Shown: in pieces, positions 10,630-21,387 of the stretch | How positions within the stretch are numbered: position 1 is the stretch's first letter | Layout: every line of letters starts with the position of its first letter | Assembly: GCF_002077075.2 (NCBI RefSeq) | Contig: NZ_LCWM02000003.1 | Location: forward strand, 30,762 to 71,177 | Direction: 5' to 3' | Origin: Thermoproteus sp. CP80 | GTDB lineage: Archaea > Thermoproteota > Thermoprotei > Thermoproteales > Thermoproteaceae | DNA length: 40,416 nucleotides | The notes under the pieces: model-generated | What the model was told of the DNA's origin: nothing | The model's input: the letters and a program-made list of their open reading frames with translations, nothing else | Database searches by the model: none | Position numbers and translations under genes: made by a program

Positions 10630-11769
10630 CTAGAGGCGCATCAGCAGCTTGACCATGCCCGTGCCGATGGGGATATGGCGCCCCGCAATTATGTTCTCGA
10701 AGACCCCTCTGAACGGCTCTACCTCGCCTTTCACCGACGCCTCGACCAACGTCTTCACGGTCACCTCGAAGGCGGCCTTGGCCAGCGGCGACTCCTTTGA
10801 GCCCACGACTCCATGTCTGCCGATAGGCCTCACCTTGCCCAGCCAGGTCATGGCGTCGGCTACAGTATACATGTGTCTGCTGTCCACGTCGAGGCCCTGC
10901 TCCGCGAGGACTCTCTTGATCTCGAGCGCTATCAAAGTCCTGGCTACCTCGATCCCCAACACCTCCGCGACTTCGTGCAGATCGTTGCTGTAGGTCCTCG
11001 TGTGGTCGACCTCCTCCAGCTGCAGTACCCCCTCCAGATTGTTGCCCTCGGTTATGATGTACCACTCCCCGGTGTTTCTGTCTTGATCGACCAGGACCTT
11101 CCTGACGCCCTTTATGCCGCCTATCCTCGTCTGGAGCACCTTGTCGCGTAGCTTCCTCAGCTTCAACATGTCGGGGGTTTCGAGCCTAATGGTTATAGTA
11201 TATCTCTCTATCTCTATAGATACGCCTTTACCGCGCATTCTAGAAAGTATCCTCTCTACATCTTTAATATTTATTCCTCGATACTTCATCTGTTCCGGAT
11301 CTAGTTCTATAGTGATGCCGTACGTTATATAGTCTACATCGACAAATTTAGCTAGGTTCTCTATGGTGGTCAGCTGTATCTTCTTAGCGACCTCTGTTGC
11401 TGATTCCTTAGATTTATTGTGGGGATGTTTCAAATAGACATACATAAGAGGCGTCGAAGGCTTCCTTCTGGCGTCGACTATCTCTATCATTCTGGGCAGG
11501 CCGCGCGCCATGGAGAACTCCCTCAGGCCGGCGAAGTGGAAAGACCTCAGGATCATCTGCGTCGATGGTTCGCCTATGGACTGGGCGGTTATTATGCCTA
11601 TGGCCTCGCCGGCATCTATAAGAGATAGGGCGTAGAGCCTCAACGTCCTGTAGATCAGCCGTAGCGCCGTCTCTTCGTCGAGCCCCTCGACGGCCTTCTT
11701 GAGGTCCTCGTAGAGAGTTCTGGGGATTGCCGACGATAGGTCTTCGAGCAGCTTCGCGACCGACATCAC
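10630..11769 (-). CDS. rpoA2: RNA polymerase subunit A'' (Rpo1C)
   Basis: The C-terminal part of the split archaeal largest subunit, 379 aa. The trigger-loop and bridge region shows GEAIGIITAQSIGEPSTQMILRSFHFAG, and the cleft end shows IARTLIALEIKRVLAEQGLDVDSRHMYTVADAMTWLGKVRPIGRHGVVGSKESPLAKAAFE. Its ATG overlaps the rpoA1 stop by four bases. The stretch 11205-11350, coding a beta-rich region, uses AT-rich codons unlike the rest of the gene. Confidence 0.97.
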   Translation of the reverse strand: MMSVAKLLEDLSSAIPRTLYEDLKKAVEGLDEETALRLIYRTLRLYALSLIDAGEAIGIITAQSIGEPSTQMILRSFHFAGLREFSMARGLPRMIEIVDARRKPSTPLMYVYLKHPHNKSKESATEVAKKIQLTTIENLAKFVDVDYITYGITIELDPEQMKYRGINIKDVERILSRMRGKGVSIEIERYTITIRLETPDMLKLRKLRDKVLQTRIGGIKGVRKVLVDQDRNTGEWYIITEGNNLEGVLQLEEVDHTRTYSNDLHEVAEVLGIEVARTLIALEIKRVLAEQGLDVDSRHMYTVADAMTWLGKVRPIGRHGVVGSKESPLAKAAFEVTVKTLVEASVKGEVEPFRGVFENIIAGRHIPIGTGMVKLLMRL

Positions 11770-14417
11770 CTTATGTAGAGCCTCATTATATTTACGTTTG
11801 CAGACTTGCCGTGGTCGGATTTGGATACGTCGGTGCCGTCGTCGCCGTATAGGGGCTGTAGGAGAAGTCCGGAGCCGTAGCGCACAGTGCCGTCGTAGGC
11901 CACATAGGCGTCCTGTAGCGCGTTGATTATTCTGCGCTGCATATATCCGCTTTGGGCCGTGCGCACGGCGGTGTCTATCAAGCCGTCTCTACCGCCCGCT
12001 GCGTGGAAGAAGTACTCCACCGGCGTAAGGCCCTTGATGAAGGAAGACGACACGAAGCCGCCCGAGAACGGCCCTATATCTCCCACGGGGAAATGCGGCA
12101 GGGTCCTCGTCCTGTATCCCCTCTTGATCCTCTCGCCCCTTATGGTCTGCTGGCCCAGAGTGGCCACCATCTGGACTATGTTGGTCAAGCTCCCGCGCGC
12201 CCCCGTCTTGGCCATGAGGTAGGCCTCCGAGCTCCTGTTGATGTATCTGTCCACGACGCCCTCGGCGTCGCTGCGCACCTTAGAGAGTATCTCGGCCAGC
12301 CTGTTCTCGAGGGTTTCCTGCACGGTGTAGCCGGGCATGGCCTCCAGCTTGCCCTCCCTGTAGAGCTCTATGAGCTCCATCGCCTTGTCTATGCCGCTCC
12401 TTATGATCTTATCCACCTCGGCCATGGCCTCGTCGGGTATATGGAGCGAGTCGAGGCCTATGGAGAAGCCCTTGAGGTCCAGGTACCTCAGGAACGCCCG
12501 CAGAGAGGAGTCCAGCCACCTTCTGGCTATATCGGCCGGGTAGTCCCTAGCTATGCGGTGCCAGAGCGAGTCCACCTGCTCGGCGCCTATGGACTTTTTG
12601 TCCAGAGTGCCCGTCACCATGTTGCCGTTTATTATTATTATCCACTCGTCCGTCTCGCATCCATAGGGCTCCTTGCAGGTGGACTTGAACGCAGTCGGCT
12701 GAACCCAGTTGAGGTCTTTGGGCAACGCCATGCTTATGATCTGCTTCCCCGTCCACAGCTCGACGGGGTGCATTATGGCCGGCTCCGGCAGATCTCCCTC
12801 CAGCTTCATGGCGCCGGCCAGATAGGCCGCCTCCTTCTTCGTGAGGAGGGTAGTCTTGCGCGATAGGAGGTAGGCGCCTATAATATAGTCCTGCCTGGCG
12901 CCTATTATGGCGCCGCCGTAGCGCGGAGTCACTATGTGTTCTTGGACCAGCATCAAGGTCCGCGCCTCGGCCCTCGCCTCCTCCGTCTGCGGTATGTGGA
13001 GGTTCATCTCGTCTCCGTCGAAATCGGCGTTGTAGGGCGGACATACGGCGAGGTGGATTCTGAAGGTCCTGCCCGGCAGGACCCTCACTATATGGCCCAT
13101 CATGGACACCCTATGTAGCGACGGCTGTCTGTTGAAGAGGGCTATGTCCCCGTCCCTTATGTGGCGCTCGACCATCCAGCCGGGGGCCAGCTTCTCGGCG
13201 AGCTGCTTTCTGTCCTTGACGTAGCGCAGATCGACGCGTCTGCCCTCAGGCGTTATCACGTAGTTGGCGCCGGGCCAAGTCTCGGGCCCCCTCATCACGG
13301 CCTGTCTGAGGTAGTCGAGGTTCCACTCGGTGACCCTCTCGGGCACAGTCAACACCTTGGCTATGTCGACGGGGACCCCGACCTCGTTTATGCTCAGGTT
13401 GGGGTCCGGGCTTATCGCCGTGCGGGCCGAGAAGTTGACGCGTTTGCCGGAAAGGCTCCCCCTAAATCTCCCCTCCTTGCCCTTAAGCCGTTGCGCTATG
13501 CCCTTGAGGGGTCTGCCGCCTCTGTGTTTGGCCAGGGGTATGCCCGGCAGCTCGTTGTCGAAATAGGTCGCGGTATGGTACTGGAGAAGGTCCCAGAGGT
13601 TGTCTATCACGTTGGTAGGCGCGCCTGTCTCCAGCGCTATCTTCAGCTTCTCGTTCATCCTCATTATGTCGACCAGCTTGTGGGTCAGATCGTCCTCGCT
13701 CCTTATGCCGGTCTCGAGCTGTATGGAGGGCCTCACGTGGGGGGGCGGGACCGGCAACGTCCTGAGGATCGCCCACTCGGGGCGAGCCACCGTGGGGTCG
13801 ACCCCCAGGAGCTCGAGGTCGCCGTTGGGCACCTTGACCAGCCTCTCCAAGATGGTCTCGGGGTCCAGCTTCACCAAGGCGCCCGCCTCGGTCTCCTCGT
13901 AGAAATTATAGGGCCTTTCGAACCTCACCTTGTTGCGTCTATAGCCGCAGTGAGGGCAGGTGGTCCTCTCGGCGGCCTTCCTGAGGATCTTCTCGTGGAG
14001 ATTCGTGGCCAGCAGCTTCCACCTGCCCCTGAGCCTCTGAAGACGCTCGCTGTACCTCCTGATCTCCTCGTCCTTCAGCATTATCCTGCCGCAGTTGGGG
14101 CAGGTGGCCCTCAGGACGTCGTATATAAACCTGGCGAACTCCACGTGTATCACCGGCTTCACAAGCTCTATGTGGCCGAAGTGGCCGGGGCACACGTCGT
14201 AGGGCTGTCCGCAGGTCTCGCATCGGGCTCCCGGCTCCGCGACGCCGAGCCTCCTATCCATCAATCCGCCGCGGATGGGCAACCCGCCCTCGTCGTAAAT
14301 CTCTGACGTAGTTATCTCGAGGACCGAATATCGCCTTATTAGGTCGGAGCTGAGGATTCCGAACTTTACATCTCTTATAGTCTTAGTGGGGATGTAATCC
14401 TGTTGCTGAACGGCCAC
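11766..14417 (-). CDS. rpoA1: RNA polymerase subunit A' (Rpo1N)
   Basis: The N-terminal part of the largest subunit, 883 aa, normal length and without an intein. Zinc sites are visible in CETCGQPYDVCPGHFGHIELV and in the CPNCG and CPHCG pairs. The catalytic magnesium loop is NADFDGDEMNLH. Also seen are RFRGSLSGKRVNFSARTAISPDPNL and HAAGGRDGLIDTAVRTAQSGYMQRR. The start is GTG at 14417, with a TATA box 24 bases upstream, so rpoA1-rpoA2 has its own promoter here. In most archaea rpoB lies directly upstream; here a 3.5-kb island separates them. Confidence 0.97.
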   Translation of the reverse strand: MAVQQQDYIPTKTIRDVKFGILSSDLIRRYSVLEITTSEIYDEGGLPIRGGLMDRRLGVAEPGARCETCGQPYDVCPGHFGHIELVKPVIHVEFARFIYDVLRATCPNCGRIMLKDEEIRRYSERLQRLRGRWKLLATNLHEKILRKAAERTTCPHCGYRRNKVRFERPYNFYEETEAGALVKLDPETILERLVKVPNGDLELLGVDPTVARPEWAILRTLPVPPPHVRPSIQLETGIRSEDDLTHKLVDIMRMNEKLKIALETGAPTNVIDNLWDLLQYHTATYFDNELPGIPLAKHRGGRPLKGIAQRLKGKEGRFRGSLSGKRVNFSARTAISPDPNLSINEVGVPVDIAKVLTVPERVTEWNLDYLRQAVMRGPETWPGANYVITPEGRRVDLRYVKDRKQLAEKLAPGWMVERHIRDGDIALFNRQPSLHRVSMMGHIVRVLPGRTFRIHLAVCPPYNADFDGDEMNLHIPQTEEARAEARTLMLVQEHIVTPRYGGAIIGARQDYIIGAYLLSRKTTLLTKKEAAYLAGAMKLEGDLPEPAIMHPVELWTGKQIISMALPKDLNWVQPTAFKSTCKEPYGCETDEWIIIINGNMVTGTLDKKSIGAEQVDSLWHRIARDYPADIARRWLDSSLRAFLRYLDLKGFSIGLDSLHIPDEAMAEVDKIIRSGIDKAMELIELYREGKLEAMPGYTVQETLENRLAEILSKVRSDAEGVVDRYINRSSEAYLMAKTGARGSLTNIVQMVATLGQQTIRGERIKRGYRTRTLPHFPVGDIGPFSGGFVSSSFIKGLTPVEYFFHAAGGRDGLIDTAVRTAQSGYMQRRIINALQDAYVAYDGTVRYGSGLLLQPLYGDDGTDVSKSDHGKSANVNIMRLYIR

Positions 14418-14478: not shown

Positions 14479-14661
14479 TCACTCCAAGATCTCCGCAGGT
14501 ACATCGATAGCCATGTCAGGTGTAATGCAGATATGGCTCCCCTTCTTCCGGCATCCTGCGACTAAATAGCCATACCAAGGCCCCAGCAACTGTGCCCTCA
14601 ACTCCGCCCCTCGATGGATCGAACCGCCTGCGCCGGAAGGCCGCATGCGCCACCTAGACAA
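14479..14661 (-). pseudogene. Possible HicA-like toxin remnant ending in the rpoB tail
   Basis: A 60-codon frame with a weak TTG start. The segment LLGPWYGYLVAGCRKKGSHICIT, followed by AIDVP, resembles the core of HicA (YcfA) mRNA interferases, where an R-x-KGSH-hydrophobic strand precedes a VP strand. The usual P-x-H and the C-terminal helix are missing: the frame ends right after VPAEILE. Its last five codons and stop position match the end of RpoB (AEILE-stop), and 14 bases are identical. It may therefore be a toxin fragment fused by recombination to a copy of the rpoB end, or a chance open frame. No toxin activity is expected. HicA assignment is tentative. Confidence 0.3.
14483..14496. 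repeat. 14-bp direct repeat, copy 1 (rpoA1 side of island)
   Basis: TCCAAGATCTCCGC is identical to positions 18008-18021 at the 3' end of rpoB. Read on the minus strand, both copies encode AEILE immediately before a stop codon. The pair brackets the radical SAM island, as expected for an integration-site duplication that restored the end of rpoB. Confidence 0.6.
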
Positions 14662-14855
14662 GTCTTCAACTATAGCGGCGCCGCCCTAACCCCAATCAAC
14701 AGCCCTGCCTCCGTCAAGCAGTCCTTTCGCCCTCTATTATTATCCTCGACGCCTGCCCGTCTCCCAGATACACAGTCCAGCCTGAGCCACAGCCTCTAGG
14801 CTCTCCATCTTCGGCGTTGTTCAAAAAATCATTTGAACGGCAGTTAATATGTATA

Positions 14856-14865
14856 TTTAAATATA
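14856..14865 (+). promoter_or_regulatory. TATA box of the radical SAM pair
   Basis: TTTAAATATA is centred about 27 bases upstream of the GTG at 14888. It supports that GTG as a leaderless start and suggests a two-gene operon. Confidence 0.55.
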
Positions 14866-14887
14866 GGAAACGGGAATTAAAATTATT

Positions 14888-16399
14888 GTGTCATCGTTAG
14901 GTGAAAACCTTGATAAGATTATAGAGAAAAATAATAAGAACTCAGGAAGCGGGGCTGGCGCGTTGATTGCGGCGATTAGGATATTGAACAAGGGCGCTGT
15001 TAGGCGGGTCCTAAGACTGTTCACGAAGGAGGTGGAGTTCAACGGTGAAAGGAAGCCGTTGATGGATTGGGTGTTGGCAAAATACGTCGGCGAGGAGCAG
15101 TGCCCAACGGTCGTCCACTTCGTGGCGCCGTTTTTCGAGATGGGCATGAAGCTGGCTACGGCGTGGCTTCACGCCGACGAGGATTCCATCAAGGAATTGT
15201 TGAGCGACCCGGCATTGAGGAGGGGTATAGTTACGACGTTGCGCGGCATTGCGCTGTTCGGCGTAACCACGCCCCAGAAATTGCCTGCTCCGTTTTTCAT
15301 TGTGTGGAATTTCACAAACGTCTGCAACCTAAAGTGTATACATTGCTATCAGAACGCAGGAAGGCCGTTGCCTAACGAGCTAACGCTTGAGGAGAAGCTT
15401 AGAGTTGTCAAGGAGCTTGATGAGGCAGGCGTGCCGGCAATTGCCCTATCTGGCGGCGAACCGACGGTGCACAGGGACTTCTGGCCAGTCCTGGCTGAGA
15501 TAAGTAGGAGGGGCTTCTACCCGGCCATTGCCACGAATGGGATAACTTTTGCGAGTCTGGAGTTTGCTGAGAGAGCCAAGAAGCTTGGGCTTAGGTACGT
15601 TGAGATGAGCATAGATGCCGCCAATCCGGCGGTTCACGACAAATTCAGGGGCGTCCCTGGCGCTTGGTCCAAGACCGTTCAGGGGTTGAGGAACGCCGTC
15701 AAGCTGGGCTTCACCACAGCCCTTGCGTTTACGGTAACGAAGGTCAACATACAAGAGGTCGATAGCATACTTGATTTAGCCCAAGAAATTGGCGTCAATA
15801 AGGTTGTGTTCTTTAACTTCGTGCCGGTGGGTAGAGGCCGTGAGAATCTCGAGATCGATCTGTCGCCAGAGGAGAGGGAGGAGTTCCTTAGACATATCTA
15901 TACTGAGACGAAGAAAAGGAAGATGGAGATAATCAGCACGGCCCCCCAGTACGGTAGGGTGGTCAATCAACTAAGTGCTGGCGAGGACGTATCGCCGACG
16001 CACTTCGTCATAGCCAACGACCCAATAACTAGGGAATTGACCGAATTCATCGGCGGTTGCGGCGCCGGCAGGGTCTATGCGGCTATCGAGCCTGAGGGCA
16101 CCTTAACGCCTTGCGTTTTCCTGCCATATCCGGTGGGCAACCTGAGGACCAAGTCCTTCTGGGACATATGGATGGACCCATTTATGGAAAACTTCAGAGA
16201 TAGGGATAGGCTAGAAGGCTTCTGCGGCAAGTGTCCGTACAAGCTGATATGCGGCGGTTGTAGGGCTAGGGCGTACAACTACTTCGGCGATGTGTTGGCG
16301 CCGGACCCAGGCTGCATCTACAACTCGGCAGAGTGGCGTAAATTGACGGAGGATCTAAAGCGGATTAAGATTAAAGTATCGCCGATGGCGTTTAAGTGA
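14888..16399 (+). CDS. Radical SAM/SPASM domain enzyme
   Basis: A 503-aa iron-sulfur enzyme of unknown substrate. A helical N-terminal domain of about 130 residues is followed by the radical SAM core with CNLKCIHC (C146, C150, C153), the SAM-binding LSGGEPTVHRDFW and the strand AIATNG. A C-terminal SPASM region (about 388-480) is rich in Cys: GGCGAGR, LTPCVFLPYPVGNLR, CGKCPYKLICGGCRARAYN and DPGC, able to hold one or two auxiliary 4Fe-4S clusters. This layout is shared by PqqE, NirJ and AhbC/D-type enzymes and peptide maturases, so cofactor or peptide modification is possible but not proven. No precursor peptide is evident nearby. It is followed 4 bases later by a second radical SAM gene. Codon use differs from the flanking polymerase genes. 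Confidence 0.88.
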   Translation: MSSLGENLDKIIEKNNKNSGSGAGALIAAIRILNKGAVRRVLRLFTKEVEFNGERKPLMDWVLAKYVGEEQCPTVVHFVAPFFEMGMKLATAWLHADEDSIKELLSDPALRRGIVTTLRGIALFGVTTPQKLPAPFFIVWNFTNVCNLKCIHCYQNAGRPLPNELTLEEKLRVVKELDEAGVPAIALSGGEPTVHRDFWPVLAEISRRGFYPAIATNGITFASLEFAERAKKLGLRYVEMSIDAANPAVHDKFRGVPGAWSKTVQGLRNAVKLGFTTALAFTVTKVNIQEVDSILDLAQEIGVNKVVFFNFVPVGRGRENLEIDLSPEEREEFLRHIYTETKKRKMEIISTAPQYGRVVNQLSAGEDVSPTHFVIANDPITRELTEFIGGCGAGRVYAAIEPEGTLTPCVFLPYPVGNLRTKSFWDIWMDPFMENFRDRDRLEGFCGKCPYKLICGGCRARAYNYFGDVLAPDPGCIYNSAEWRKLTEDLKRIKIKVSPMAFK

Positions 16400-16403
16400 G
16401 GCC

Positions 16404-17819
16404 ATGAGAGTCCTGCTGGCGGTCCCGCCAGGTATCGATAAACTTGAGTTGTACAAAGTGCTCGGCCTTAAGGCGCCGCCGCTGGGTCTCGCCTGGATAG
16501 CCGCAGTTCTGGAGATGGCCGGCCATAAAGTTAGGGTAATTGACTCGCCTACGGAGGGCGTCGACTTAAAAACGTTCATAAACGAGGTCGAGTCTTGGAG
16601 CCCCGACGTAGTGGGTATTACCTCTATAACGCCGACGATATACAAGGCCTACGATGCGGCTAAGGCGATTAAGGAGTACGATAAGGACTTGCCCGTGATA
16701 ATGGGCGGTCCTCACGTCACGTTTATGTACGAGGAGGCGCTCAGCAACGGAGTCGATGTTGTGGTTAGAGGCGAAGGCGAGTACACGACCTTGGAGTTGG
16801 TGAACACTATGGAGAAGGCCGGTCTCGACGCAGAGCGTCTAAAGTCGATAAGGGGCTTGGCGTTTAGGCGCGGTGGCGAAATTGTGAGAACGCCCGATAG
16901 GCCGCCCATTAGGAACTTGGATGAATTGCCGCCGCCAGCCCGCCACCTATTGCCGATGGATAAGTACACCTTGTTTGGCAAACCCATCAGGATAATACAT
17001 GCGATGGCTAGTAGGGGTTGCCCATACGGTTGTTCCTACTGCTCCACGTCGTATTTCTGGGGCAGAATGATCCGCTATAGGTCGGCTGAGGCTGTGGCCG
17101 ACGAGATCGAGGATGCGGTTAATAAATACAAGACAAATATTGTCGTATTTACCGATGATGAGTTCACGCTAGGTAAGAGGTTTGTTTATGATTTCCTTAG
17201 GGAAATTAGGGAGAGAGGGCTTGACATAAGCTTCTCATGTGGTTCGAGGGTCGATACAATAGATAGAGATATGATGGCGAAATTGAAGGAGCATGGATGC
17301 ACGGCGCTTTACTTCGGCGTCGAATCGGGAAGTCAAGACACCATAAACAGAGTTGGCAAGAACATAACGTTGGAACAAGCCAATAGAGTGTTCCAATGGG
17401 CTAAGGAGATTAACATAGACCATGTTGGTTCATTCATAATAGGTTTCCCGTGGGAGACCATAGACGACATGAAGAATACCGTGAGGTTCGCCATGAAGCT
17501 GAACCCGACCTACGCCCAACTCACTGTGGCCACTCCATATCCAGGAACGCCACTTTACTACCAAGCCGTCAACGAGAACCTAATCGAGGACTGGAACTGG
17601 GAGCACTACACAACGCTCAGAGCGGTTATGAGGGGTTATAGGTTTACGAGGGAGCAGGCGCAGAGGATGCTACAGTGGGCCTATGTCAAATTCTACAGTA
17701 GACCTAAGTTCCTAGTTCACGAGCTAATCCATGGTAGATTAGGCACGATAATTACCGCAGTAAGGAACTCGTTAGTTCCTTGGTTCAACGAGAAATTACT
17801 AGGAAGATCTAGCGAGTAA
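16404..17819 (+). CDS. B12-binding-type radical SAM enzyme (COG1032)
   Basis: A 471-aa protein with an N-terminal Rossmann-like cobalamin-binding-type domain (about 1-135: APPLGLAWIAAVLEMAGHKV, DVVGITSITPT, VIMGGPHVTF and VVVRGEGEYT). A radical SAM core follows with ASRGCPYGCSYC (C206, C210, C213) and FTDDEFTLGKRF. The strict DxHxxG cobalamin motif is absent, as in many COG1032 proteins. Related enzymes carry out methylations, ring formation (BchE) and lipid modification, including hopanoid methylation and tetraether-lipid cyclisation. Start ATG at 16404 is preceded by a GTGAGG ribosome-binding site and sits 4 bases after the SPASM enzyme, so the two probably act in one pathway. Confidence 0.87.
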   Translation: MRVLLAVPPGIDKLELYKVLGLKAPPLGLAWIAAVLEMAGHKVRVIDSPTEGVDLKTFINEVESWSPDVVGITSITPTIYKAYDAAKAIKEYDKDLPVIMGGPHVTFMYEEALSNGVDVVVRGEGEYTTLELVNTMEKAGLDAERLKSIRGLAFRRGGEIVRTPDRPPIRNLDELPPPARHLLPMDKYTLFGKPIRIIHAMASRGCPYGCSYCSTSYFWGRMIRYRSAEAVADEIEDAVNKYKTNIVVFTDDEFTLGKRFVYDFLREIRERGLDISFSCGSRVDTIDRDMMAKLKEHGCTALYFGVESGSQDTINRVGKNITLEQANRVFQWAKEINIDHVGSFIIGFPWETIDDMKNTVRFAMKLNPTYAQLTVATPYPGTPLYYQAVNENLIEDWNWEHYTTLRAVMRGYRFTREQAQRMLQWAYVKFYSRPKFLVHELIHGRLGTIITAVRNSLVPWFNEKLLGRSSE

Positions 17820-18003
17820 TTAGATCTCCATACGTCAAATATCGCCGGAATTTTTCCTACAAGAATGTACCTATTCATTTTCCGCTTTCTTGACCATTCA
17901 CCTCATACGAGCTTTATGTCGTCGCACAGCAAGGTTGCCCTAGCCATCTACGACAACGCACCCCGTCTTACTAATCGGGAGAGCGAGAGGGGACCTAAGT
18001 TCG
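17820..18003. other. Short gap between the radical SAM genes and rpoB
   Basis: These 184 bases hold no supported gene. A T-rich run (TTTTTCC near 17852 and TTTTCCGCTTTCTT near 17878) could terminate the plus-strand radical SAM transcript. The convergent rpoB gene ends at 18004. Confidence 0.4.
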
Positions 18004-21000
18004 TTATTCCAAGATCTCCGCGAGCTCTAGTTTCGGATAAATCCCCAGCGCGATCAGCTCTTGAAGCAACAGCTTAAAGGCATAGGGCACCGTTACCTTG
18101 GCGAACTGGCCCGACTCGCCGTGTATGGGGCACTTCGGCCTGTTCGTCTTGGCGTCTAGATAGGCGGGGAGACCGCACAGCTCGCAGACGTACATGATGT
18201 ACTTGTCGCTCGACTCGACCATCCTCTCGTAGAGGAGGGCGGAGGCTCCGTGGGCGATGAGCACATCGCGCTCCATCTCGCCGAGCCTCAGCCCGCCCTC
18301 GCGCGAACGTCCCTCGGTGGGCTGTCTCGTGAGTATCTGGACGGGCCCTCTGGAGCGGGCGTGTATCTTGTCAGCCACCATGTGGTGGAGCTTCTGGTAG
18401 TAGGTTATGCCTATGAATATATCGGCGACGAGCTTCTCGCCGGTTATTCCGCTGTACATGACCTCCTTCCCGTCCCATCTGAATCCCAGCTTCATGAGGA
18501 GCTCCCTCAGCTCTCCCTCCGTGACTCCCTCGAAGGGCGTCGCGTCCACCAGCTGCCCCGTCAATGCGCCGGCTTTGCCCGCTATCGATTCCAGCAGCTG
18601 GCCGACCGTCATGCGCGAGGGCATGGCGTGGGGGTTGACGATTATATCGGGGACTATCCCGTCCTCTGTAAACGGCATGTCCTCCTGTCTCAACAACATG
18701 CCGATGACGCCCTTCTGGCCGTGGCGCGAGGCGAATTTATCGCCGAGCTCCGGCACGCGCAGCTCCCTCAGCCGCACCTTGACCAGCTTATTGCCCTCGG
18801 GCGACTCGGTTATGACGACCCTGTCGACGATCCCCCTCTCGCCCCGCCTCACCGGTATCGAGGCGTCGCGCCTCTCCTTCAGGATCTTCTCGGTCTCGAG
18901 GGTCATGTAGAATCTCGGCGGGGCGGTCTTGCCTATGATGACCTCCCCGCCTGTGACGTACACCTCGGGGGGAGCTATTCCGTCCTCGTCCAGATGGCTG
19001 TAGGCCTCCGGCCCTCTATATCCTCTGGCCGAGGGGTCGGGCACCTCTATCCTATCCTCCTCGCCTCCCAGATATCTCTGCTCCTCGGTCTCGTAGGTGC
19101 GGTAGAAGTTGGAGCGGAGGAAGCCGCGATCCACCGACGACTTGTTCATGATGACGGCGTCCTCTATGTTATAGCCGGTGTACGTGAGGAGGGCCACCAC
19201 GGCGTTCTGGCCCGCGGGCTTCCTGGAGTACCCGACCAGCTCGAGCCCTCTGGTAGTAACGATGGGCCTCTCGGGGTAGTAGAGCATGTGGCCGCGCGAG
19301 TCCAGCTTGTACATGAAGTTGGCTTGCGGCAGGCCGAGGGACTGCTTCGCCATAGCGGCCTCGTATTGATTTCTGGGCGACTGGTTGTGCTCCAGGTAGG
19401 GTATTATGGACGCTATCGCGCCTAGGATAGACGACGGGATTATCTCCATGTGGGAGTACTTGCCCATATCGGGCTCTGGGCCGACCGCTATGTAGGCGTT
19501 TTCCTCCTCGTCTGCGTCTAGGTACTCCACGACGCCCATCTTGACCAGGTCGTTCCAGGTGAGCTCGCCCGATGCGAGCTTCTGGACGTGCTCCTTGGTG
19601 AGCTTCAATCTGCCGTCCTCGACGACCAGCAGGGGCCTCCTGATGCGTCCGCCGTCGCAGTTGACGTAGACGGCGTCGCCTATATGGGCCACGTTGACCT
19701 CGTCCGAGATTCTGCCCTGCCGCCTCATCTTGCGGAGGGTCTTGACGAGCTCCTCGGGGTTCTGGTGTACGCCCACGAGCCGCCCGTTTAGGTAGACCTC
19801 GGCGCCCTCGAGCCCTCCCCTCCTTGCCTCCAGCACGGGCACCACGCCCAGCTCGGTCAACATCTTCTCGACGGCGGCCTCGTCCACCCCTATAGTTACC
19901 TCGGCCAGTAGGGCCAGGTTCTTGACGAGCCCGACGTTCTGACCCTCGGGGGTCTCGACGGCGCACAGCCTGCCCCATTGGGTCGGGTGGAGGTCGCGGG
20001 CCTCGAAGTGGGGCTGGGTCCTGCTGAGCGACGACACGACCCTCCTCAAATAGCTGAGCGTGGAGAGGTAGTTGGTCCTGTCCAGTATCTGCGAGACGCC
20101 TGTCTTGCCGCCGACCCAGTTGCCCGTCGCCAGCGCTTGTTTGACGCGCTCGGTTATGATATCGGGTCTGACTATGGTCTGGAGATGCGGTATCTTGCCC
20201 CTTGCGTAGTACTTCTCTAGCTGGTTCTTGAGCTCCTGGAGGAATTGCTTCATGACGGTTCTGAACAGCTGGGCCAGGAGGTCGTTAACGAGCCTCACGC
20301 GTTTGTTGGCCACGTGGTCCTTGTCGTCAGGCTTCCTTCTGCCCAGCTGCATCTCTATAAGCCCCTTAACCACCTGCCCCAGCAGCAACGCCTTCTTTAT
20401 CCTGGCTTCCTCCATGGCCTTCTCGTCGGGCTTCTGGGGGTTGAGGTTCGGCAGGAAGTATTTGTCGAGTATCTGGAGAGCCCTCTCTATCCTTATGGGC
20501 TTCGGCTGGCCGACCGCGATCTTCCCGCCAATGAAGTCCAACGCGTCGTCCTTAGTCGTGGCTATCTCCTGGCCTGCCAGCAACGAGGGCAGCAGCTCCT
20601 TCTGTATATCTGGGTCGTCCGAGACCGCCAGGACTATGTCCTGGTCGCTCTCGAGCCCCATGGCGCGCATATACACCGTGAACGGGATCCTGACGGGTAT
20701 GGCGGATAGGGTCACGTATATGACGCCGTCCTTGTGGTACTCGACGGTCATCGTGGCGCGGTAGCCGGGCCCCGTCGATATGACCTTGGCCAGATACCTG
20801 ATGGTGGGCTTGTCGCCCGCGTCGTAGATAGGCCTGTCCGTGACCAGGTCCTCCTGGCTTATGACGACTCGCTCGCTCCCGTTTATTATGAAATAGCCGC
20901 CGGGGTCCTCCGGGTCCTCGAACCGCTTGGGGTACTCCTCGGGCTTCAGCCTGGTGAGGTTGCACTTCTTAGACTTGACCATTATGGGCAGCTCGCCGGC

Positions 21001-21387
21001 GTATATGGTCTCTGTCGCATACGGCTCGTCCTCGACGTAGAGAGTCACCGTCAAGTACATCGAGGCGCTGTACGTGGCGTTTCTGAGCCGGGCCTCCATG
21101 GGGTATATGGCGGTCTCGGAGCCGTCGGGCTCCTTTATCCTCGGCCACCCTATCTCGACGCGCTCTATGGCCACCTTCAAGCCCTTTATCTCGGTCTCGA
21201 CGACGCCCATCTCCTCTATTATCTTGGGCAACTTCCTGTCTATGAAGTCGTTAAAGGCCCTTATTTGGTGATCCGCTATCCCTCGGTCTCTGATGAAGGC
21301 CTTGACCAACGTCCACCTATCATCCGACGTGGGGAACCCGCCGTCCTCAGACCTGTACCTTATCGGTAACGGGAGCAGATCGACCAT
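18004..21387 (-). CDS. rpoB: RNA polymerase subunit B (Rpo2)
   Basis: The second-largest catalytic subunit, 1127 aa, unsplit and without an intein. Landmarks are GGYFIINGSERVVISQEDLV, KTGVSQILDRTNYLSTLSYLRRV, RDLHPTQWGRLCAVETPEGQNVGLVKNLAL, SRHGQKGVIGMLLRQEDMPF, NPHAMPSRMTVGQLLE and the C-terminal zinc site CELCG with CPIHG. It overlaps rpoH by one base. In most archaea rpoA1 follows directly; here the RpoB end (AEILE-stop) is followed by the radical SAM island, and a copy of its last 14 coding bases is found on the far side of that island. Confidence 0.97.
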   Translation of the reverse strand: MVDLLPLPIRYRSEDGGFPTSDDRWTLVKAFIRDRGIADHQIRAFNDFIDRKLPKIIEEMGVVETEIKGLKVAIERVEIGWPRIKEPDGSETAIYPMEARLRNATYSASMYLTVTLYVEDEPYATETIYAGELPIMVKSKKCNLTRLKPEEYPKRFEDPEDPGGYFIINGSERVVISQEDLVTDRPIYDAGDKPTIRYLAKVISTGPGYRATMTVEYHKDGVIYVTLSAIPVRIPFTVYMRAMGLESDQDIVLAVSDDPDIQKELLPSLLAGQEIATTKDDALDFIGGKIAVGQPKPIRIERALQILDKYFLPNLNPQKPDEKAMEEARIKKALLLGQVVKGLIEMQLGRRKPDDKDHVANKRVRLVNDLLAQLFRTVMKQFLQELKNQLEKYYARGKIPHLQTIVRPDIITERVKQALATGNWVGGKTGVSQILDRTNYLSTLSYLRRVVSSLSRTQPHFEARDLHPTQWGRLCAVETPEGQNVGLVKNLALLAEVTIGVDEAAVEKMLTELGVVPVLEARRGGLEGAEVYLNGRLVGVHQNPEELVKTLRKMRRQGRISDEVNVAHIGDAVYVNCDGGRIRRPLLVVEDGRLKLTKEHVQKLASGELTWNDLVKMGVVEYLDADEEENAYIAVGPEPDMGKYSHMEIIPSSILGAIASIIPYLEHNQSPRNQYEAAMAKQSLGLPQANFMYKLDSRGHMLYYPERPIVTTRGLELVGYSRKPAGQNAVVALLTYTGYNIEDAVIMNKSSVDRGFLRSNFYRTYETEEQRYLGGEEDRIEVPDPSARGYRGPEAYSHLDEDGIAPPEVYVTGGEVIIGKTAPPRFYMTLETEKILKERRDASIPVRRGERGIVDRVVITESPEGNKLVKVRLRELRVPELGDKFASRHGQKGVIGMLLRQEDMPFTEDGIVPDIIVNPHAMPSRMTVGQLLESIAGKAGALTGQLVDATPFEGVTEGELRELLMKLGFRWDGKEVMYSGITGEKLVADIFIGITYYQKLHHMVADKIHARSRGPVQILTRQPTEGRSREGGLRLGEMERDVLIAHGASALLYERMVESSDKYIMYVCELCGLPAYLDAKTNRPKCPIHGESGQFAKVTVPYAFKLLLQELIALGIYPKLELAEILE
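18008..18021. repeat. 14-bp direct repeat, copy 2 (rpoB 3' end)
   Basis: TCCAAGATCTCCGC within the last codons of rpoB, identical to 14483-14496. The rpoB stop codon lies at 18004-18006. Confidence 0.6.

Follow-up and report, generated by a model that had tools for sequence, protein, structure and literature searches.

What do two adjacent radical SAM enzymes modify in the hot-spring archaeon Thermoproteus sp. CP80, and how did their genes come to lie between rpoA1 and rpoB? The window analysed here, a contiguous stretch of 40,416 nucleotides, carries a radical SAM/SPASM gene and a B12-type radical SAM gene, for which a lipid, a tetrapyrrole and a peptide had been put forward as candidate substrates. 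The original prediction of two such genes, 4 bases apart behind one TATA box, agrees with the coordinates, the Pfam matches and the promoter element.

A two-gene operon between rpoA1 and rpoB

The operon and its flanking genes are as follows.

14888..16399, plus strand: ORF1 (gms), a radical SAM/SPASM protein of the GMGT synthase family, 503 aa, starting at GTG
16404..17819, plus strand: ORF2, cobalamin-type radical SAM enzyme from a family linked to gms, candidate methylase of the tetraether core lipid (GMGT), 471 aa, ATG start
14855..14864, plus strand: TATA box TATTTAAATA serving both genes, with a putative leaderless start (read directly from sequence)
11766..14417, minus strand: rpoA1, one flank, native Thermoproteus-type
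18004..21387, minus strand: rpoB, the other flank and the insertion target, native Thermoproteus-type

Both genes of the pair are on the plus strand and are separated by 4 bp. The TATA box precedes the GTG of ORF1 by 24–33 nt, a spacing typical of archaeal transcripts that lack a leader, so that transcription would begin near this start codon. Genomes of the Vulcanisaeta group maintain both frames, at 84–91% identity for ORF1 and 81–86% for ORF2, in identical gene order and with close spacing; this conservation marks ORF1 and ORF2 as real genes rather than fortuitous reading frames. Among carriers, V. distributa has the pair intact; Caldivirga maquilingensis carries it as well, and Thermoproteus tenax lacks it.

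ORF1 as a GMGT synthase

Although the pairing had at first not been recognised as a known pathway, ORF1 fits Gms, the GMGT synthase described in 2024, which joins the two chains of tetraether lipids by a C–C bond (PMC11186832). The relevant regions of ORF1 are listed here.

14888..15265, plus strand: N-terminal all-helical domain, residues 1–126, first helix of low confidence (AlphaFold model)
15323..15346, plus strand: radical SAM motif CX3CX2C, formed by C146, C150 and C153 (alignment)
16058..16315, plus strand: SPASM region, in which seven Cys are conserved: C391, C409, C446, C449, C455, C458 and C476 (Pfam, alignments)

ORF1 matches the Radical_SAM and SPASM families above their Pfam cut-offs (E 3e-12 for SPASM). 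Its radical SAM cysteines, C146-X3-C150-X2-C153, are invariant in an alignment of the Gms family, and the SPASM cysteines for two auxiliary 4Fe-4S clusters are present. In the AlphaFold model (pLDDT 89), six confident helices occupy residues 21–124 behind the low-confidence first helix, bearing out the helical N-terminal domain of about 130 residues that had been predicted (residues ~1–126 in the model). The bridge is composed of two helices (residues 327–343 and 354–362) and two strands (368–371 and 374–376), the latter forming a β-hairpin at 368–376. A structure search returned SuiB as the best solved fold for this model, with Tes matching as well; it was to the SuiB structure that the authors of Gms aligned their enzyme (Li et al. 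2024, PMC11186832). ORF1 thus resembles Gms in its helical cap, radical SAM domain, two-helix and β-hairpin bridge and SPASM order, as it does in its cluster cysteines, its clade and the presence of Tes in the genome.

For Gms of M. okinawensis, the published cysteines are C123, C127, C370, C372 and C438 (PMC11186832). A Methanococci homolog (L133), with which ORF1 aligns, reproduces the spacings of these cysteines at a constant offset of 22. The exception in ORF1 is C372, adjacent to C370, which is replaced by Ala393, as it is in most of the family. Published thresholds for Gms homologs are E <1e-50, identity >30% and length >420, along with separation from AhbC/AhbD. ORF1, at 503 aa, falls within all of these when compared with environmental homologs, rather than the exact reference proteins, at 38–50% identity: 49.6% to Thermococcus gms (E 5e-141) and 38% to Methanococci gms (E 5e-107). 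In a phylogenetic tree, ORF1 shares one clade with the Thermococcus and Methanococci sequences, and the branch to AhbC/AhbD-like paralogs encoded in the genome that carries it (L002, L003) has a support of 99, with three long-branched paralogs being unplaceable.

The genome also encodes a Tes homolog (E 1e-133 against 7tol), so that the host is predicted to make the GDGT substrate. V. distributa, in which the pair is intact, is said to produce GMGTs. On the strength of these sequence and model comparisons, ORF1 is almost certainly a GMGT synthase. In the proposed mechanism, Tes of the same cell would make the tetraether GDGT, and ORF1 would use its radical SAM cluster, together with the two auxiliary clusters of the SPASM domain, to activate C–H bonds on the two C40 chains. 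The chains would then be joined by a C–C bond, generating the cross-linked lipid GMGT.

Linkage of ORF2 to gms

Among 80 named gms loci, drawn from archaea and bacteria, an ORF2 homolog was found within the stretch fetched in 19, and in 15 of these it lies at most ~165 bp from gms. Relatives of ORF2 are the commonest neighbour family at gms loci. The linked pair is hosted by Desulfurococcales, Archaeoglobi, Thermoplasmatota, Methanomicrobia, Alkanophaga, a Nitrososphaerales MAG and others, and is arranged in both gene orders as well as convergently. Within the Thermoproteota, 299 genomes were sorted into those with ORF2 and gms (62), with ORF2 in the absence of gms (3), with gms alone (72) and with neither (162), although these genomes are related and a Fisher test on the counts overstates their independence. 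The three exceptions, out of 65 ORF2-bearing genomes, are all drafts in which gms was not detected, and the two genes adjoin in 26 of the 62 genomes having both. These counts employed ortholog thresholds of E ~1e-156 for ORF2 and ~1e-110 for gms, which were needed to tell orthologs apart from the paralogs that Bathyarchaeia-like genomes hold in several copies.

By this distribution, the ORF2 family depends almost obligately on gms. That ORF2 rarely occurs without gms, while gms often occurs alone, is what one would expect of an enzyme acting on the product of Gms. GMGT is regarded as the probable substrate of ORF2. The expectation that both enzymes act on one molecule gains from their adjacency across archaeal phyla and from the near absence of ORF2 where gms is lacking, and the same two observations favour a lipid among the candidate substrates. 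Neither of the two observations that were to refute the original prediction was made: homologs of the pair lie side by side in unrelated archaea, and neither member is assigned to a known unrelated pathway.

Grs-type homologs are found near gms in six loci of unrelated archaea (L086, L125, L079, L132, L137 and L143), with the order grs-gms-ORF2 in L086 and gms-ORF2-grs in L125. This arrangement suggests that loci joining Grs-type genes and gms are tetraether-tailoring gene islands.

A large expansion is seen in Bathyarchaeia-like genomes (G351, the genome of locus L122, and family f12), which have up to 12 ORF2-like and about five gms-like matches each. ORF2-like genes also occur in bacterial carriers of gms from the Caldiserica and Latescibacteria (G355, G356 and G361, the genomes of loci L094, L104 and L142), and modified GMGTs are possible in gms-bearing bacteria. 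A search meant to show whether ORF2 is connected with lipid methylation in Methanothermobacter covered 32 genomes of the phylum around one Methanococci genome, phylum membership being uncertain, and returned one distant match to ORF2.

Fold and relatives of ORF2

Two regions of ORF2 define it as a cobalamin-type radical SAM enzyme.

16461..16799, plus strand: B12-binding domain, residues 20–132 (Pfam)
17019..17042, plus strand: radical SAM motif CX3CX2C, formed by C206, C210 and C213 (alignment)

The B12-binding and Radical_SAM families are both matched above their Pfam cut-offs. The model of ORF2 (pLDDT 90) adopts the fold of Cbl-type radical SAM enzymes and matches the structures of AprD4, MgmA, TsrM, CysS, OxsB and TokK, which are mostly methylases (MgmA, TsrM, CysS and TokK). 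MgmA (9ccb), TsrM (6wte), CysS (9n1b), OxsB (5ul4) and AprD4 (6fd2) share with ORF2 a Rossmann domain and a radical SAM barrel, at TM-scores of ~0.64–0.77 by query length. Cbl-type enzymes of solved structure nevertheless differ from ORF2 in their substrates and are only 17–24% identical to it. Among NCBIfam profiles, ORF2 scores 242 bits for BchE, 201 for HpnJ, 143 for HpnR and 118 for the MgmA type, each below the family cut-off; the equivalog cut-offs of BchE, HpnJ and HpnR are 481–650.

The GrsA/GrsB ring synthases of Sulfolobus acidocaldarius are, like ORF2, radical SAM proteins; they act on tetraether lipids, and homologs of them lie near gms in some loci. An identification of ORF2 as GrsA/GrsB was at first backed by a single match in S. 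acidocaldarius, which proved to be the third homolog of that organism, and was rejected. Two radical SAM proteins are encoded at 199 and 1353 kb of a genome that we take to be that of S. acidocaldarius, and are 32% identical to each other. By position and this mutual identity they are likely GrsB and GrsA, respectively, the published similarity of GrsA and GrsB being 31% (PMC8473941). ORF2 is only 22% identical to these likely GrsA/GrsB proteins and has a Pfam B12-binding match, which they lack. It also falls outside the GrsA/GrsB clade, in a tree whose rooting branch is long and in which GrsA and GrsB are themselves assigned by inference. Separate Grs homologs are found in V. distributa (half of the genome covered) and in Thermoproteus genomes; with Grs genes of their own, these organisms would not need ORF2 for rings.

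The third S. acidocaldarius homolog, at 1551 kb, is probably Saci_1785. It is the closest protein of that organism to ORF2 (30% identity) and has a B12-binding domain, but it belongs to a separate Sulfolobaceae clade, and no Sulfolobaceae were found with a Gms-level match. One such B12-radical SAM protein (L213 and relatives) is present in each of the seven Sulfolobaceae genomes followed up.

The reaction of ORF2

As the second enzyme of the proposed pathway, the cobalamin-dependent ORF2 would work on GMGT and most likely methylate the hydrocarbon chain, a reaction that we favour modestly over any other chemistry. By its title, a study of 2024 concerns two GDGT-modifying proteins (Garcia et al. 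2024, PNAS). ORF2 is a radical SAM enzyme linked to gms, which is one of the attributes of a GMGT methylase. The two proteins of the 2024 study are reportedly Gms and such a methylase, Gmm, a radical SAM enzyme said to act with Gms on the same lipid, and the dependence of ORF2 on gms fits this account. Compared by description only, ORF2 is not filed here as Gmm; it may belong to the same family or be another partner of Gms.

Alternatively, ORF2 could be a cobalamin-dependent enzyme that oxidises GMGT or forms C–C bonds on it, for example closing additional rings or setting the position of the bridge, rather than transferring a methyl group. BchE and HpnJ, its nearest profile families, are non-methylating Cbl enzymes, and GMGTs with up to six rings have reportedly been observed in V. 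distributa, a carrier of the pair, which would suit a ring-closing ORF2. Additionally, ring structures in lipids have been proposed as the work of Cbl radical SAM enzymes (PMC13142503). Ring closure is opposed, however, by the dedicated GrsA/B homologs of V. distributa and Thermoproteus, and by the distance of ORF2 from the likely GrsA/GrsB. Methylation is, moreover, the commonest chemistry of Cbl radical SAM enzymes. A non-methylating ORF2 is therefore considered rather unlikely, although not negligible. Similarly doubtful is the broader form of this proposal, in which ORF2 founds an uncharacterised Gms-dependent, non-methylating family and gms-ORF2 forms a small cassette for lipid tailoring that is passed from one archaeon to another.

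A non-tetraether substrate, be it a heme or other tetrapyrrole or a peptide, is highly improbable: the best NCBIfam scores of both proteins do belong to tetrapyrrole enzymes (AhbD and NirJ2 for ORF1, BchE for ORF2), but these lie far below family cut-offs of 480–500 bits (for ORF1, 247 and 240 bits against an equivalog cut-off of 500), and neither ORF1 nor ORF2 reaches any NCBIfam equivalog cut-off. The tetrapyrrole and peptide candidates of the original prediction lose further support in that ORF1 stands outside the AhbC/AhbD-like paralogs that exist elsewhere in its genome and groups with the Thermococcus and Methanococci Gms. The recurrent neighbours of gms are the ORF2 family and the Grs-type lipid ring synthases, and the listed gms neighbour clusters include no recurring neighbour of peptide type.

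Insertion at the end of rpoB

The position of the methylase candidate and its gms partner is best described by an insertion into the 3′ end of rpoB, the elements of which are given below without strand.

14497..18021: inserted segment with the operon, 3,525 bp, in one of two equivalent end placements (14-bp repeat)
14483..14496: 14-bp direct repeat copy 2, the native rpoB 3′ end (AEILE-stop frame), ~60 bp before rpoA1
18008..18021: 14-bp direct repeat copy 1, forming the current 3′ end of rpoB

The insert is bracketed by two exact copies of a 14-bp sequence, TCCAAGATCTCCGC, a duplication of the codons with which rpoB ends (AEILE); such repeats have a chance expectation of ~1.5e-5 in the two short stretches compared. 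Excising the 3,525 bp restores the end of rpoB and a spacer of ~60 bp to rpoA1, a length within the range that relatives show. Compared with the flanking rpoB, the gene of a genome of the same genus (G005) is 97% identical and that of a Vulcanisaeta-group genome (G034) 71%, while ORF1 is 91% identical to its counterpart in G034 and 88% to that of V. distributa. The two genes of the pair have 67% and 62% GC at third codon positions, as opposed to 81–84% for rpoA1 and rpoB and 58% for V. distributa. The pair was not found in any of the five other genomes of the genus examined, four of them at least 99% complete and one 73%. By these measures of identity and composition the pair is foreign, having apparently been acquired horizontally from a Vulcanisaeta-like donor.

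The native flanks, the foreign identity of the pair, the 14-bp duplication and the restored rpoB end together indicate that the insert is most likely a real and fairly recent horizontal acquisition, not an assembly join. An assembly or binning chimera is very improbable, despite the draft state of this MAG (77% complete, 80 contigs) and the lack of the pair in the four near-complete genomes of the genus, as rpoB and rpoA1 are both native Thermoproteus genes on one 71-kb contig and bracket an insert with the duplication and clean excision described above.

Duplications of 14–15 bp at the 3′ termini of conserved genes are reminiscent of casposon insertion; neither a casposase nor terminal repeats are present with the rpoB-end insert. 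The insert contains no integrase-sized ORF besides the two genes and has no terminal inverted repeat of more than 6 bp, the window contains no tRNA, and a search for plasmid or phage relatives of the insert found none. A second sporadic occurrence in the family is a 71%-identical, GC-rich pair on a 4.3-kb contig of a Pyrobaculum-group MAG (G017; L020/L048).

Implications

The operon would thus constitute a membrane-lipid tailoring cassette from a Vulcanisaeta-like donor, carried in a 3.5-kb insert at the 3′ end of rpoB. This explanation as a whole, comprising Gms, an ORF2 that acts on GMGT and horizontal transfer, is judged likely. The Gms pathway itself has been known since 2024, and the points of interest here are the unsettled second enzyme and the clean transfer event. 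GMGTs are studied as indicators of temperature and oxygen, and it matters which archaea produce or modify them. With its near-obligate dependence on gms, the ORF2 family could serve as a marker for modified GMGTs. In turn, given the recent arrival of the pair in a Thermoproteus relative, species of a single genus are predicted to differ in their membrane lipids.
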